Origin: Rhizophagus irregularis
Taxonomy: Eukaryota; Glomeromycota; Glomeromycetes; Glomerales; Glomeraceae
NCBI RefSeq assembly: GCF_026210795.1
Contig: NC_089458.1
Span: forward strand, 2,310,001-2,374,000
DNA length: 64,000 bases
Direction: 5' to 3'
Numbering within the stretch: the stretch's first letter is position 1; the number at the start of each line of letters is the position of its first letter. The position numbers were made by a program, and so were the translations under genes. Below, piece by piece: positions 35,586 through 52,662 of the stretch. The notes beneath the pieces were generated by a model. The model saw nothing but the letters and a program-made list of their open reading frames with translations, did not search any database and was not told the DNA's origin.

Positions 35586-38500
35586 ATGATGGTAATTATA
35601 GCATATCTTAAATTATTTTAAAGAAATAGAATTTTGCAAACCATTTTTCGAATTATTTTTTTGTCAAAGTAGTCACACCTTCCGTCATTTCGACCTCGTC
35701 CAATTGGAATACCTCGCAGATTTTACCTACCACTCTTTTTCCTCAGAGGCCTTAGTATAGTACCTGCCACCTATAGTTTTTTTTCATGTATTTCATATGC
35801 GAATTATGTTAATGAACGTGACGCAGATGGCTTTTTGGAATTAAGAAGCACCGAGTTGGATTACTGGTTAGGTTCCATATGGGTAAGTAGTCTAATACTA
35901 CATAAGTATTTTATATTTTATGGTTGATTCTGATGAGAATTGCATGTATCAGTTTAAATCTAATAAAACAAGTTTTCGAAATCTTTTATTCTTCAAATTT
36001 TGAGATCATTATCAAGTGTATTTTTAGCAAGATGGGTAATTGTGGAGTAGATGCATTTCAATTAATTTATATATATATTAATTAATTTAATAATGTATTA
36101 ATATAAGATTTCATATTGTGTTTATTATTTGAGATTATTTCAAGGTTTATGAAATAAATCAGATTTAATCGATTGGACTCTCAGTTATAATGGATCTTCA
36201 TCGGATATTACAAAATAACTGAAATTTGCAATTAATCTGCTAAGATTGTTGGGTGATTTGATGAATTACCAATAAAAATCTTGTTGTATACCCCTAAGAA
36301 CATTATATATTTGACCGATTTAATATTTCGGTTCCTTTTTTTTACGCTAACATTTTTAGTGTCTTTTGGCCGGTCTTTGGAGTTATTGGCTTGCGGATGG
36401 TCTCATGCGCCGATGGCTCTTTTATTATGAAGTCAGCAGCGCGATAATCCGTTTAATTTCATTACAAGCTATTAATTGGGTTATTACAGCTTTTGTAATA
36501 ACACATTATGGTCCAGATGAGCCAATTTGGGCTTGGATGATTTGTAGCGTTGTTTTAGCCGTATGCAACACAATTCAATGGCTCTTTACTTCAACCACGA
36601 AATATCAGAAAGCTGATGAACCTGAAAAAATAAGACAATTGATAGTGAGAGAAATATTTCGTTATATAGTTATACCTCTTGCAATATTTACATTTATTAC
36701 GATGATTTTTCTTCTTGAACAGCAATCAAGAATCCGTTATAATTCCAATCTTGGACTTACAACTTACAAATTGAACACTAATTTGAATCTTAATGATATT
36801 CGTTCAGATTCAAACGTCAAAGTAATAATGATCGTATTATCATCATGGACGGAAAGTGGATATAAGAAAAGACAAACATTCCGTGATACTTCTGCAACAT
36901 TATTTCCTCAAAATTCAAAGAAAATTTCAATAGCTTATCGGTTTATTCTAGGAGATGCTCCATCATCTAAAGCACAAATGAACATGGGACAAAAACTTCT
37001 CGATGAATCAAAAAGATATGGGGACATAATTATTGTACCTACTTCTGATTCACAAGATAATTTAAGTCGTAAGGTTTATAAGGGATTTGAATGGTCCAAT
37101 AAATATGCCTTTGATTATATTGTGAAAGCAAACGATGATATATTCGTACGTATGGACATTTTATCTCACGAATTGGAAGAATTAGGTCCTGATAAAAAAT
37201 ATTATTGGAAAGGTCTTAGTTATTGGTATGTGTTATCAACCCTTTTTTATTGTTTAACCGATTGAAATTATCTATGTTCCAAGAATGTATTATTTATTTA
37301 CTTACTTAGGAATATTCCGACTCGTAACGCAGAAATTAAAAATACAGCTGTTGGTTATAAACTTCCTGTATTTCCACCATTTACAGCAGGAGCATTTTAT
37401 ATATTATCACGTGATATAATCTCTCTGCTTGTAACTGATACACCCCGTCTTTTTATAAAGAATGATGACCAAAATTTAGGTATATGGCTTTTTCCTTACA
37501 ATATTAAGCCAATTCATGATCGACGTATTCAACAAACTGATGTTTGCGAAGATGATATGATTGCCAAACGTTTTGGTGAAGATTTTGAAGGTGGTCAAAT
37601 TATGAAAGACATGTATGAGAATGTTATAAATCACAGAAGGATGTGTGAAGGATTTAAACAACGTTTTTGTGCATTGTGTTATCCTTGTTGGGGACGAGAA
37701 AATCACTGGAAAGATTTGAACTTTGATTGTGATGATGTAAAAGGCATAACTTTACTTAATCAGACAACTTTGATCATTGATAATCCTAAATACCCCGTGT
37801 CCGTATTTGATGATCCCATGAATGTCACAATGGGAAGTGAGGAAGATAGGTGGATAATCCCAGGTCTTCTTTCACAGCATTCTTCAGTATATTCTCGGAC
37901 AAATCAGTGGTATTTATTACATTGGGTATGTTGGACAACAGATCCATCTACTTTCCAAGAACGTCATTACAAAGCTATAGAGCTTATTTGGGTTCATACT
38001 CCTAAAGCTATTGTTTTCGTCTTAACAACAACTTTACCACAAGATTTTTTCTTGGAATATCAAAATCAAGGTTATATAATTCATGTGATTAAATTTAATA
38101 AGGAATTGATGTTGGAACGACAATGGTTTCTTGGCCAGAATTCCAAAAACTGGCTTAATGATTGGAATAAGTTGGAAAATAATCAGTTCTTTTCTTATCA
38201 TTTAACTGATTATATGCGATATTTGTTATTATATAAGTACGGTGGTGTTTATATGGATATTGATGCTCTTTGGGTACGAGCCCCACCAGATACAAACATT
38301 GAATTCATTGGGTCGGATTCTTCGAGTATTTCTTCAGATTTTGAATGGACGTTAGATAAAGATGGCACATATCTTGTGCCCGGAGTTATGAGGTTTAAAA
38401 AAGGTTGGTCTATGTTTAGAGAGATAATGGAACAAGCTTTATCTCCTAGTTATTCTCCATCATGTTTCAACTGTATTGGTTCTCGAGCAATAACAGTTTA

Positions 38501-39230
38501 TGTTAAAGAATATCGAGAAGTTCTTGAAAGACATGGACTCATAATTTTACCTAATCATATTCTTTGCCCACGAAATTATATTCATATTGACAAACTTTTG
38601 AGATCTGATCCAATTGCTCAAAAAGAATTTCAAAAAATAGGAGAATCATCCTGGAATATACATTTGTTCGGAAGATCGACTAACTATCAATTTATTGAAA
38701 ATGGCAGTGTAATTAGTTTATTATTAAAGACATTTTCTTTAGATGTTCCTCACGCATCGGCTCCATTAATAGCAGGCGGGAAACCAAATTTTAGTAATCC
38801 ATCATATCCATTCGTCTTGGAAGGACCAAAGAAATATCGATTTGTGTCCTCAACTACAGTAAAAGAAGTGGATCAATATACAGGATCTTTAAATGGGCAA
38901 TTTCAAGGTTTAAATTTAATATTTATACGTGGTGGACCTCCAATAGTAAATCAAACAACGATAAAAGCGAAGGCCTTAAATGGAAAATTATCTTTTAATT
39001 TACATGGTGGAGATTGGAGTGAAAGTTCTCTTACAATTAATAATTCAACGAAAAAGGACGTTAATGCTTTACTAAATACTCTTACATATCGTCCAAATGA
39101 TCACTTACGGAGAACGGAAGAAAAAGATGATATCAGTTTAGAAGTTACATATGGTGACCACCAAGCTAAATTAATAATTGAAATTGAAATTCCTATTTGG
39201 CAAGATAACGTTGAACCCTCTTTAAAATAA
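35586..39230 (+). CDS. Polytopic membrane glycosyltransferase fusion, GT31 plus GT32
   Basis: Four exons, 35586-35591, 35673-35882, 36360-37225 and 37310-39230, give exactly 1000 residues. The N-terminal 200 residues hold about five hydrophobic segments (FYLPLFFLRG, SIWCLLAGLWSYWLADGL, LISLQAINWVITAFVITHYG, MICSVVLAVCNTIQWLF, YIVIPLAIFTFITMIFLL). A beta-1,3-galactosyltransferase-like GT31 domain spans about 225-430: RQTFRDT, then the acidic motif FDYIVKANDDIFVRMD and AGAFYILSRDIISLL. A GT32 domain of A4GALT/Och1 type spans about 500-780, with HLTDYMRYLLLYKYGGVYMD and DxD in MDIDALW. A beta-rich C-terminus (VNALLNTLTYRPNDHL) may be a repeat-type fold. Donor and acceptor sugars cannot be read from sequence. 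The two-codon first exon is inferred; the rest is firm. Confidence 0.82.
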
Positions 39231-39583: not shown

Positions 39584-40508
39584 TTATTTAGTTTGAGAAC
39601 TTGAAGCTCCTTGAGCTCCTTGAGAAATCTTATATTGCATAATATCAATTGTTGCTAAAAATAGGAAAGGTATGAATAAATATAATACACATAAAAAGAT
39701 GAATATTAATGATGATGATCTTACATCTTAAATTGCTCTGTTTAGTTAAAATTGTTTGTCGTAAAGTTTCAACATTCTTTTTTACATACTCGACTTTATC
39801 AGAATAAAAATTTATAGCATCGACCGAATTCTTTTTAAAGTAATAATATAGTTAATATGTTATTATAAATTAAATTAAGTTAAATTTAACAATAGTGATG
39901 AAGACAACATAATAACCTTTTCAACATAATAGCCTGTTCCAACATCTACCATTACTTTATCAGTATCAACCAATTCTCCTGGTACATAAAGGTATTTGTT
40001 TCGTTAAAGAGAAAATAAACATTTAATCAAAACAAAAAAGAAATTTTTTAATTATAAAAATAAAAAGGATATCGATTGTGTTAACGGAACAAGAAGAATA
40101 TCTTTTCCTATAAAATAAAAGAAAAATTTGAAGATTGATAATGAAATTGATTTTGAAAAATATTCATTAAACTGCCTTACCTTCTTTAATAGTTTTTACA
40201 CTATCTATACAATCTTGAAAACGAGTTTGAGCTTGTTTAAGTTTTTCATACGAAGCTGTCAAATGTGCTAATTCCTAGCAAAAGCATTAAATTAAAACGC
40301 TAAAACGCGAAACCAAAAAAAAAAAAACAATTAGAATTATATGATCTTCTGTTACCTCTTCTAATTGTTTCTTAATTTCAACTAATTGAGTTATATCCAA
40401 GTCACTTAACTCTATAGTTGGTTGTTTAGCTGAAGTTGAGGCCGACATATTAATTTCTTCTATAGTTGAGAACTTGAATGGTTTTTTATCAGGTCTGAAT
40501 TTTCCCAT
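39584..40508 (-). CDS. PFD5: Prefoldin subunit 5 (Gim5), with a U12-type AT-AC intron
   Basis: Prefoldin hands unfolded actin and tubulin to the chaperonin CCT. Exons 40508-40356, 40274-40181, 40107-40073, 39991-39917, 39830-39725 and 39654-39584 give 177 residues from the first ATG, or 157 from Met-21 (MSASTSAK), which suits the family better. Seen are [53 protein letters not shown] and [16 protein letters not shown], alpha-class prefoldin coiled coils around a beta hairpin. The junction LTQS|LYVPG lies at an intron starting ATATCCTTTTT and ending AATAC. No GT-AG choice preserves the frame there. Confidence 0.92.
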
Positions 40509-42720: not shown

Positions 42721-44206
42721 ATGATAAAGTTTGGTTTAAAATTCTTACAAGATAGAAAGAAAGAGGTGAATATTTTAAAGATAATAAATAATTATATAAT
42801 GTCAAAAAAAAAAAAAAAAAAATTTTCTTCTCACATTTTTTTTTTTATTTTTACTTTATTAGGAAAAAAATTTAAACCAAGAAATTATACCAGAATTACC
42901 TGCTTTTGAATGGCAAGTAACAGAGGAGACAGGGTTTGAAAGTTGTTTACTTACAACTTCTTTAACTACAATAATACCTCCAGAAGATGCAATACTTAGT
43001 GTTACGGACAAGGATAAGCGTCGTAAATCTACCATTTCGGTTAAAGGGCATTCAAGATCTTCAACAAATGTTGAATCTGGTAGAATAAGATTAATGCAAA
43101 TAATTGATGATAAAAATTCAAGAGAGAATTTTAGAAATTATTTAGTTTCAAGATATTGTGAAGAAAATTTAGATTTTTATATGGATATATTAAAATTTCA
43201 ATCAAATTTTAAGAAAGAAATTTTAAAAAATAATGAAATTATTACTGCGGCTAATTATATATGGAATGAATATTTAGATCCTCAAACTTCTTCTAAACCT
43301 TTAAACGTTCCTCAAGAACTTTTAAATCAATGTAAACAAAAAATTTCTCAAAATTCATTTACCATCGATTTATTTGATAAACTTCAACAACATTGCTTTG
43401 ATTTAATGTTACAAGATTCTTTACCAAAATTTACGCGTAATTCGATGGCAATATTATCATCACCTTCCTCATCAGAAAATTATTTAAATTCTTCAACCTC
43501 TTCTCTTTGTTATCTTCGTCCCCCTGATAAACAACCTTCTTTAAGAAAATCACTTTCTTCTGGATCACTTCGTGCTAAAATGAATTCTGCCATTGCTTCA
43601 TTAAAAACAACTAGTGAAACTACATCACAAACCACCTCACCTTATATTTCACCACCTCCATCACCTATTCCCCCACAATTTTCATCACAATCATCTGCAT
43701 CATCTCCCACATCCACTAGTACATTCTCAAGCACATCATCTACAACATCTACATCAACTACGTTTTCAATTCCAACAACCCCTACATCAACGGTACCAGT
43801 GGTACCAATTACAGTAATAAATAATCAACAAAGAATGTCAATGGCATCAGCTATGTCCATATCACATATCACCAAAAGAATGTTATTAGGTCGTCGTAAT
43901 TCAACAAGTTCAAATCATTTTTCTGTATCAGCACTTTCTTCTGTACTTTATTTAAGTAGTCTAGAAAAATTTCGATGCATGCCAAGTTCTTATCCGTGTT
44001 CACCCGGGACAAATAATAATGATGAAAATAAAAAAGATGATAGTGATAATTTTTCATCTACTTGGCAAAAACTTCGAAGAAATATTTCTACACCTAATTT
44101 TCAATCTCGTCCAAGATCACGTTCAAGTACACTGTTTAATACCAATAATAATAATAATAATCAGGACAATAGTAGTGATAAAAAACTTCCACCACTCCCT
44201 AGTTAA
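42721..44206 (+). CDS. RGS-domain protein (regulator of G-protein signalling)
   Basis: RGS domains speed GTP hydrolysis by G-alpha subunits. Two exons, 42721-42765 and 42863-44206, give 462 residues. The RGS domain spans about residues 95-220: LMQIIDDKNSRENFRNYLVS, RYCEENLDFYMDILKFQ, AANYIWNEYL and LFDKLQQHCFDLMLQDSLPK. After it comes a low-complexity tail rich in Ser, Thr and Pro with RRNSTSS and PRSRSSTLF, likely phosphorylated. The domain arrangement is simple, with no DEP domain or 7TM segment visible. The start is the only ATG that splices in frame. Confidence 0.88.
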
Positions 44207-50206: not shown

Positions 50207-52662
50207 ATGTCTCAAGAAGCTCGAATAAATCGTATCATTGATGGTTATAATAGACCAAACCGTGTTGTGGAATTTCCTAAAAAAAATGGAACACCACTTT
50301 ATACTTCTGAATTCTTTGGTGAAAATGTTTTCTCATTAAAAACTATGGCAAAATGTTTGCCAAAACCTGTTTATCAACAATTCATTAAACAGATGCGTGG
50401 TGGTCAAGTTATGGATAAGAATACTACTGATTCGGTTGCTCATGCCGCAAGAATTTGGGCAATGGATAGAGGTGCAACTCATTTTACTCATTGGTTTCAA
50501 CCTCAAACAGGAAGTACAGCAGAAAAACAGGATTCTTTCTTAACAATAAATAATAATTTTGATTCAAATGGTGAAATTTATCAATTGGATACATTCTCAG
50601 GATCTCAACTTCTTCAATCTGAACCAGATGCATCATCTTTCCCATCTGGTGGTATGCGTTCCACTTTTGAAGCACGTGGTTATACAGTTTGGGATACCAC
50701 GAGCCCCATGTTTATTCAACCTGGTCCTCATGGTACATCCATTCTTTATATACCTTCTATATTTATTTCATATAATGGTGAAGCATTAGATGAGAAAACT
50801 GTTTTATTGAGATCTTCTGAAGCTCTATCAAAAGCTGCTGTTGAATTATTGAAATTGATCAACCCTAATCCAACTGGTATGTTTTAGTCCAAAAAATTTA
50901 CAAAAACCGTTGATCAATAAAATTAACGAATAATATACATTTTTTTTTATTATTATTAGATGAGAACCCCCATGTTACACACGTTTATACTACATTAGGT
51001 GTCGAACAGGAATTTTTTCTTATAGATCGTGGACTTTATTCTTTACGTTCAGATTTAAAAATTACTGGTAGAACTCTTGTTGGTAGACTTCCTCCAAAAC
51101 ATCAACAAATGGAAGATCATTATTTTGGAAGAATGCCTACACGAGTTTTATCAGCTATAAGTGAAGCCGAACTTGAATTAATCAAATTGGGAGTCCCTGT
51201 TAAAACGAGACATAATGAAGTTGCACCATCTCAATTTGAAATGGCCCCAATTTTTGAAGATGTATATATATATATATTTTAATTTTTAATTTTATTCACC
51301 TTTCTTTTATTAATCTTCAATTTATTTATATTAATTATATTAAAAAAAATTTTAAAAATCCTTTAGGCAACGATCGCTGTTGATCATAACCTTTTAACTA
51401 TGGATGTGCTTCATAAAGTTGCTCATAATCATAAACTTAAAGTACTTTATCATGAAAAACCGTTTAAAGGTATTAATGGTTCAGGAAAACATTGTAATTG
51501 GTCACTTTCTACGAATCATGGTGAAAACCTTTTGGACCCTACTTCAACACCTGAAACAAATTATCGGTTTCTTTTATTCTTGGTTGCTATTCTTAATGCT
51601 GTTCATATTCATGCCGGTCTTTTAAGAGCTGGTATCGCATCAGCTTCTAATGATCATCGTTTGGGTGCTAATGAAGCACCTCCTGGTATCGTTTCTGCTT
51701 TCTTGGGTGAACATTTAACAGAAATTCTTAATGCAATTGAAGAAACTCGTGCAATTAAAAGTTCAGAACCTCATTTTGAAAGTATTAAAGTTGGTGGTAC
51801 TGTATTAGATATGAAAATTTCAACACTTCCAGAAATTTTACGTGATTTAACTGATAGAAATCGTACTTCACCTTTTGCTTTTACTGGTAACAAATTTGAA
51901 TTTCGTGCTGTTGGATCCAAACAATCAACTTCATTCCCAGTTACATTATTAAATTCTGCTGTCGCTTCTTCAATTCAAGAAGTGACAGAAGCTCTTTTAA
52001 AACAAAAGGGTGATAAACCTACTCTTACTGATGAGGATAAAATATTTGTAATAAGGAAATATATTATCAAAACTAAAAATATTCGTTTTGAAGGTGATAA
52101 TTATTCAGAAGCTTGGGTTAAAGAAGCTGAAACTCGTGGTTTACCTAATATTAAGAAATCTCCTGAAGCTTTTACAAAATTATTAGATCCTGTTAATTCT
52201 GATATGCTTATAAAGAATGGAATATTTACTAAATCAGAACTTCATTCTCGTCATCATATTTTACTTGAAAAATATACAAAAGATATACTTATTGAAGCAA
52301 GAACTCTTGAAGCTATAGTTAAAACTCAAATACTTCCAATTGCTTATGAATTTCGTAAATCATTAGCTGAAGGAATTAAATCAATAGAAAGTGTTTGTAG
52401 TAAAGAACATTCAGTTCCTGAAAGAAATATAATTGAAATTACAACACCAATTGTAATTGATTTACAAAAATATATTGATTCAATTACAACTATGATTAAA
52501 GAAGTTGGTAAAATTGATGACCCATATAAACAAGCTGAATATACCGAAAAGAATTTATTACCCATTATGGAAGAAATTAGAATAAAAGTTGATAATTTGG
52601 AAGAATTGATTTCTGATAAACTTTGGCCATTACCAAAATATAATGAATTATTATTTTATTAA
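50207..52662 (+). CDS. Glutamine synthetase, type III (GSIII/GlnN)
   Basis: Makes glutamine from glutamate, ammonium and ATP. Three exons, 50207-50876, 50960-51261 and 51367-52662, give 755 residues, close to the long type III form and about twice fungal type II. Seen are [20 protein letters not shown] near the start, the GSIII core [13 protein letters not shown], then [19 protein letters not shown], the substrate loop [20 protein letters not shown] and [20 protein letters not shown]. The C-terminal helical domain ends near [19 protein letters not shown] fungi assimilate and transfer nitrogen, so it may supplement type II enzyme. Type III is mostly bacterial, with scattered eukaryote cases. 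Confidence 0.93.

Follow-up and report, generated by a model that had tools for sequence, protein, structure and literature searches.

Minor introns, a rare type that depends on a second splicing machinery, have already been described in the root-symbiotic fungus Rhizophagus irregularis. Larue and Roy (2023) predicted 205 of them from annotated introns, and their article (PMC10639083), in the parts that concern this species, reports the U11, U12, U4atac and U6atac RNAs, names four minor-spliceosome proteins, with 65K, 35K and 20K among those reported, and gives phase 0 as the rarest phase of Rhizophagus minor introns. The words prefoldin and PFDN5 are absent from its main text. The human PFDN5 gene carries a minor intron as well, according to the relevant portions of PMC8034651 and PMC10853781, and its position was not found in print in the sections of the literature looked through.

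Here we analyze intron 3 of the R. irregularis gene for prefoldin subunit 5, a protein that assists folding; this intron is almost certainly a U12-type AT-AC intron. It is a further genuine case in a species whose minor introns were already known, and it may well be one of the 205 published. The original prediction had considered the retention of such an intron in this fungus to be notable; the intron is indeed retained, and in view of the published set (PMC10639083, as far as its relevant parts go) the retention is not new.

The prefoldin 5 gene and its AT-AC intron

The window, that is, the whole 64,000-nt stretch of DNA analyzed, contains a prefoldin subunit 5 gene of six exons on the minus strand, from 40448 to 39584, in which four of the five introns are GT-AG and intron 3 alone is AT-AC (Table 1). 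The spliced product of 157 aa matches the Pfam Prefoldin family (PF02996) with 97.2 bits, and among solved structures it comes closest to prefoldin subunit 5 chains (E 1.5e-27), followed by archaeal alpha; the identity first proposed for the gene is thereby borne out. The joining of 40073 to 39991 (TCG to CTT) gives the sequence ...LTQS-LYVPG..., and this junction aligns with LTSSMYVPG of a solved prefoldin 5 chain (LLVPLTSSMYVPGKL). If the intron is retained, the reading frame meets an in-frame stop.

Table 1. Exons, introns and splicing signals of the prefoldin subunit 5 gene (positions in the window, in the order of transcription)
Feature	Position	Strand	Remarks
Alternative in-frame ATG	40508	-	60 nt upstream of ATG 40448
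Exon 1	40356..40448	-	ATG at 40448
Intron 1, GT-AG, 81 nt	40275..40355	-	
Exon 2	40181..40274	-	
Intron 2, GT-AG, 73 nt	40108..40180	-	
Exon 3, 35 nt	40073..40107	-	From the reading of the splice joints and the comparison with the solved chain
Intron 3, AT-AC, 81 nt, phase 0, U12-type	39992..40072	-	
U12-type 5' splice site ATATCCTTTTT	40062..40072	-	Duplex with the genome's U11 -9.5, with U6atac -8.2 kcal/mol
Branch site CTCTTTAAC	40003..40011	-	Probable branch A 40004
AC 3' splice site	39992..39993	-	No pyrimidine tract between AC and branch site
Exon 4	39917..39991	-	From the reading of the splice joints and the comparison with the solved chain
Intron 4, GT-AG, 86 nt	39831..39916	-	
Exon 5	39725..39830	-	
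Intron 5, GT-AG, 70 nt	39655..39724	-	
Exon 6 including stop codon	39584..39654	-	

Alternative ways of cutting around the junction were analyzed by two procedures. When 5' cuts from 40090 to 40051 were tried, two cut positions restored LTQSLYVPG, the AT-AC one and a GA-TA one shifted by a single base. Between 40107 and 39917 there are 92 pairs of the GT-AG, GC-AG or AT-AC kind that span 40 nt or more, and the full frame was kept by 16 of them, 15 AT-AC and one GT-AG. The sole full-frame GT-AG pair deletes 174 nt, including the conserved core, and was rejected. One of the 15 AT-AC pairs shares the 5' site of intron 3 and ends at an AC at 39998, adding two residues; we consider the distance of this AC from the branch A, a mere 6 nt, too short for it to serve as the principal 3' site. 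The boundaries originally assigned to the intron hold, and so does the accompanying claim that no GT-AG pair would restore the conserved junction. The same data bear on whether the segment is an intron at all, rather than an insertion within an exon or the product of gene decay or of faulty assembly. That reading is extremely improbable: the four other introns are ordinary GT-AG ones, the joined frame of 157 aa is intact and conserved, and the conserved junction reappears once 39992..40072 is removed.

The signals of intron 3 agree with its assignment to the U12 type. The intron extends from ATATCCTTTTT to TTTTCTCTTTAACGAAACAAATAC, its final bases being AATAC, and its start follows the U12-type pattern (A/G)TATCCTTT from the first intron base. 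The U12-type branch-site consensus is TTCCTTAAC, located about 10-15 nt from the 3' end; the branch site of intron 3 coincides with this consensus at seven of nine positions, and its probable branch A lies 12 nt before the last base, matching the distance of about 12 bases given at the outset. Between the branch A and the AC the sequence is CGAAACAAAT, which holds no pyrimidine tract. A generic AT-AC U12 pattern, ATATCCTTTN{25,55}TYYTTAACN{6,12}AC, has a single match in the window, which is intron 3, and was matched in one of 100 dinucleotide shuffles of the window, a result that serves as a guide because the pattern was composed after the intron had been seen. The 5' motif RTATCCTTT alone, with three matches in the window against 2.72 expected, is not unusual. 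The case for the intron lies in four features taken together: 5' site, branch site, the distance between branch site and 3' end, and coding junction.

Other open frames of the window have domain matches as well. On the plus strand, a single open frame (36366-37265) matches both EOS1, an N-glycosylation protein, and Galactosyl_T, and the frame adjoining it (37557-39230) matches a DXD glycosyltransferase. Further along the plus strand are an RGS-domain protein (43094-44206, 70.1 bits) and a type III glutamine synthetase in two open stretches, 50207-50887 and 51400-52662, with matches to GSIII_N (228.5 bits) and to the Gln-synt C-terminal domain (133.2 bits); the two stretches probably belong to one gene.

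Minor-spliceosome components and other candidate introns in the genome

The search for minor-spliceosome components covered 146.7 Mb in 32 contigs, with Rfam gathering cut-offs applied to the snRNAs. The TEF primers of R. irregularis given in PMC4153046 agree with the origin of this genome: the forward primer matches it exactly at one place, and next to that place the reverse primer also matches exactly and in the orientation expected, for a span of 167 bp. All four minor-spliceosome snRNAs have matches above them: U12 (68.9 bits, the one U12 match in the genome), U11 (71.9 and 55.5 bits), U6atac (79.9 bits) and U4atac, which at 55.0 bits exceeds its cut-off of 53 by 2 bits. The corresponding genes, judged by sequence, are presumably expressed. 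A ubiquitin-like domain of the U11-25K type is present in two adjoining stretches (50.4 and 30.4 bits). Profiles of PDCD7 and SCNM1 found no match in this genome, nor in any of 14 control genomes, so that their absence is uninformative. In the 64,000-nt window none of 4227 Rfam families exceeded its cut-off. The second U11-like locus (L003, C30:407421-407547, 55.5 bits) is on the same contig as the window; this copy has a poorer 3' stem and lacks the TCCCAYAA element treated below, and it is perhaps a pseudogene.

The 5' end of the genome's U11 forms with the 5' site of intron 3 a duplex of -9.5 kcal/mol; out of 2000 shuffles, 0.45% attain this value. Its duplexes with the four remaining prefoldin introns have -0.3 to -3.1 kcal/mol. 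For U6atac the value is -8.2 at intron 3 versus +0.4 to -2.6 at the other four, and 10.6% of shuffles attain it. By inspection, the branch segment UCUUU(A)AC can be paired to GAGUAAGGA in the U12 of this genome if one A is left bulged and one G-U pair is allowed. The energy of this duplex (-3.1) is not discriminating, being equalled or bettered by 58% of shuffles and surpassed by that of intron 5 (-4.9 vs -3.1).

This failure of the U12 duplex energy to single out the branch site of intron 3, together with the fact that some AT-AC introns are U2-type, is what can be said for removal of the intron by the major spliceosome, with either GT-AG or unusual AT-AC ends. Such a U2-type identity is nevertheless very unlikely, in that no enumerated GT-AG pair keeps the conserved core, the start of the intron fits a U12 5' site and pairs with U11 and U6atac far better than any of the other introns, and the 3' end has no pyrimidine tract. 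The U12-type assignment made in the original prediction is therefore upheld by the agreement of 5' site, branch site, intron ends and U11 pairing, and the result that it had named as a refutation, a genome devoid of every minor-spliceosome component, did not come about, since matches to the four snRNAs and a U11-25K-type domain are present.

As a U12-type intron, the segment would be processed as follows. U11 would recognize the 5' site and U12 would pair with UCUUUAAC, leaving the branch adenosine bulged out; U11 would then give way at the 5' site to U4atac/U6atac with U5. Cleavage by the minor spliceosome would fall just ahead of the AT and just behind the AC, 12 nt downstream of the branch point, so that TCG and CTT would be joined within the conserved LTQS-LYVPG segment.

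Other candidates were sought by pattern in the whole genome. For the AT-AC pattern there were 34 rows, compared with 21 in a reversed control, the motif alone thus being weak; the counts were not used as proof because of the control. These rows correspond to 31 places, three being listed twice, and several are copies of repeats. Thirty of the 34 were taken as loci, the prefoldin intron included; 12 others were joined and read, and 10 of them scanned against Pfam, but since the scanned candidates were picked by eye from open frames no rate is derivable. In four of the 10 (L010, L020, L025 and L026) the junction falls inside a Pfam domain above its cut-off, the domains being a DHHC palmitoyltransferase, a short-chain dehydrogenase, a ubiquitin-conjugating enzyme and a neurobeachin WD40 domain. 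L019 has a match across the junction below the cut-off, L013 and L015 have weak matches on or beside it, and the joined products of L007, L022 and L030 gave no match in the Pfam scan.

The GT-AG U12 pattern gave 25 rows against three in the control, and a strict version of it one genome match against none. Twenty-two of the 25 were dropped, all being within one dispersed repeat. Among the others, L037 has a Nucleoporin_N match across its junction (25.3 bits against a cut-off of 23.7), L056 gave no match in the Pfam scan, and L047 was left out of the scan for having too little open frame. The dispersed repeat (22 copies, L040-L046, L048-L055 and L057-L063) has an internal stretch of 79-81 nt, GTATCCTTT...TTTTAACCAAGACTTAG, that mimics a GT-AG U12 intron; in an ungapped comparison of the flanks at 200 nt most copies still match, and six drop to 45-76% on one side. 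The 22 near-identical copies of a GT-AG version of the motif would be expected if the prefoldin intron belonged to a mobile, recently multiplied class of U12-type introns similar to introner elements. That possibility has next to no probability: over 50 nt on either side of the motif, the copies also match the reference copy, at 84-100%, which places the motif inside a longer repeat, and none of the other rows of the genome-wide AT-AC pattern resembles the prefoldin intron.

Promoter of the U12 gene

The U12 gene (L066:1501-1740, equivalent to C19:2428390-2428629) was compared with the loci of U6atac (L065) and SRP RNA (L064). Upstream of the starts modelled by Rfam, the PSE core TCCCAYAA appears at -61 in U12, -63 in U6atac, -55 in U4atac and -55 in the U11 gene of contig C20. 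The sequence TATATAA is found at -27 in U12, with another at -76, and at -29 in U6atac; neither the C20 U11 gene nor the U4atac gene has it within 120 nt upstream. A strict PSE-TATA pattern derived from the U12 and U6atac promoters was searched in 147 Mb and gave three matches, with none in the reversed control: U12, U6atac and the SRP RNA gene, identified with 142.2 bits. In each of these three genes, 34 nt is the spacing between PSE and TATA. No U6 gene is among the three matches, and the pattern thus misses the best-known snRNA gene of Pol III.

At the other end of the gene, a T10 run begins 1 nt past the modelled end of U12, which contains no internal TTTT, a feature with little weight alone since 48% of simulated sequences lack TTTT as well. 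In the SRP RNA gene a T9 run lies 11 nt beyond the end. An internal T5 is present in U11 and U4atac, and their first run of at least four T past the modelled end is at 91 nt (C20 U11) and 38 nt (U4atac), that of the C30 U11 copy being at 14 nt. The Sm site of U12 is AAUAUUUG, compared with AAUUUUUG in the Rfam consensus.

SRP RNA is a Pol III product elsewhere, and U6atac is one in humans, as given in the pertinent part of PMC5493778. The U12 gene has a PSE and a TATA element at the spacing that it shares with U6atac and SRP RNA, followed by a T run after the gene, a layout of the Pol III type. On the basis of these common elements, the common 34-nt spacing and the terminal T10, transcription of U12 by Pol III is the simplest reading of the layout; the odds are lowered by the absence of U6 from the strict matches, and we would put even chances on U12 being transcribed in R. 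irregularis by Pol III rather than Pol II. A limited look-up of the literature, as far as its texts extended, met no report of a U12 transcribed by Pol III. The U12 promoter is a more novel lead than the prefoldin intron. If the reading were true, a spliceosomal RNA of the Sm class would have switched polymerase, which is directly testable, and the splicing of minor introns, that of prefoldin included, would be tied to Pol III activity.

Comparison with described minor introns

The closest system is that of R. irregularis itself, in which the published set shares with prefoldin intron 3 the species, the intron class and the four snRNAs; intron 3, being of phase 0, belongs to the rarest phase of that set (PMC10639083, in its parts on Rhizophagus). 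Rhizopus oryzae and Phycomyces blakesleeanus, also early-branching fungi, have both AT-AC and GT-AG U12 introns, although far fewer are reported in them than in R. irregularis (PMC2846911, in its passages on these species). The word prefoldin is absent from the main text of that article. The present intron gives independent support to the persistence of minor splicing in a fungus that belongs to neither of the two large fungal groups.

The comparison with humans concerns the gene itself. The gamma isoform of human PFDN5 is 45 residues shorter, as would be expected if the 3' site at the corresponding junction were shared. Human PFDN5 is the orthologous gene and likewise has a U12-type intron, so far as the portions of PMC8034651 and PMC10853781 that treat it indicate. 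Minor introns of prefoldin 5 thus occur both in humans and in a fungus, and since the human gene also has one, the minor intron of prefoldin 5 may be ancient. If the positions in the fungal and human genes coincide, the intron would be older than the split between animals and fungi.
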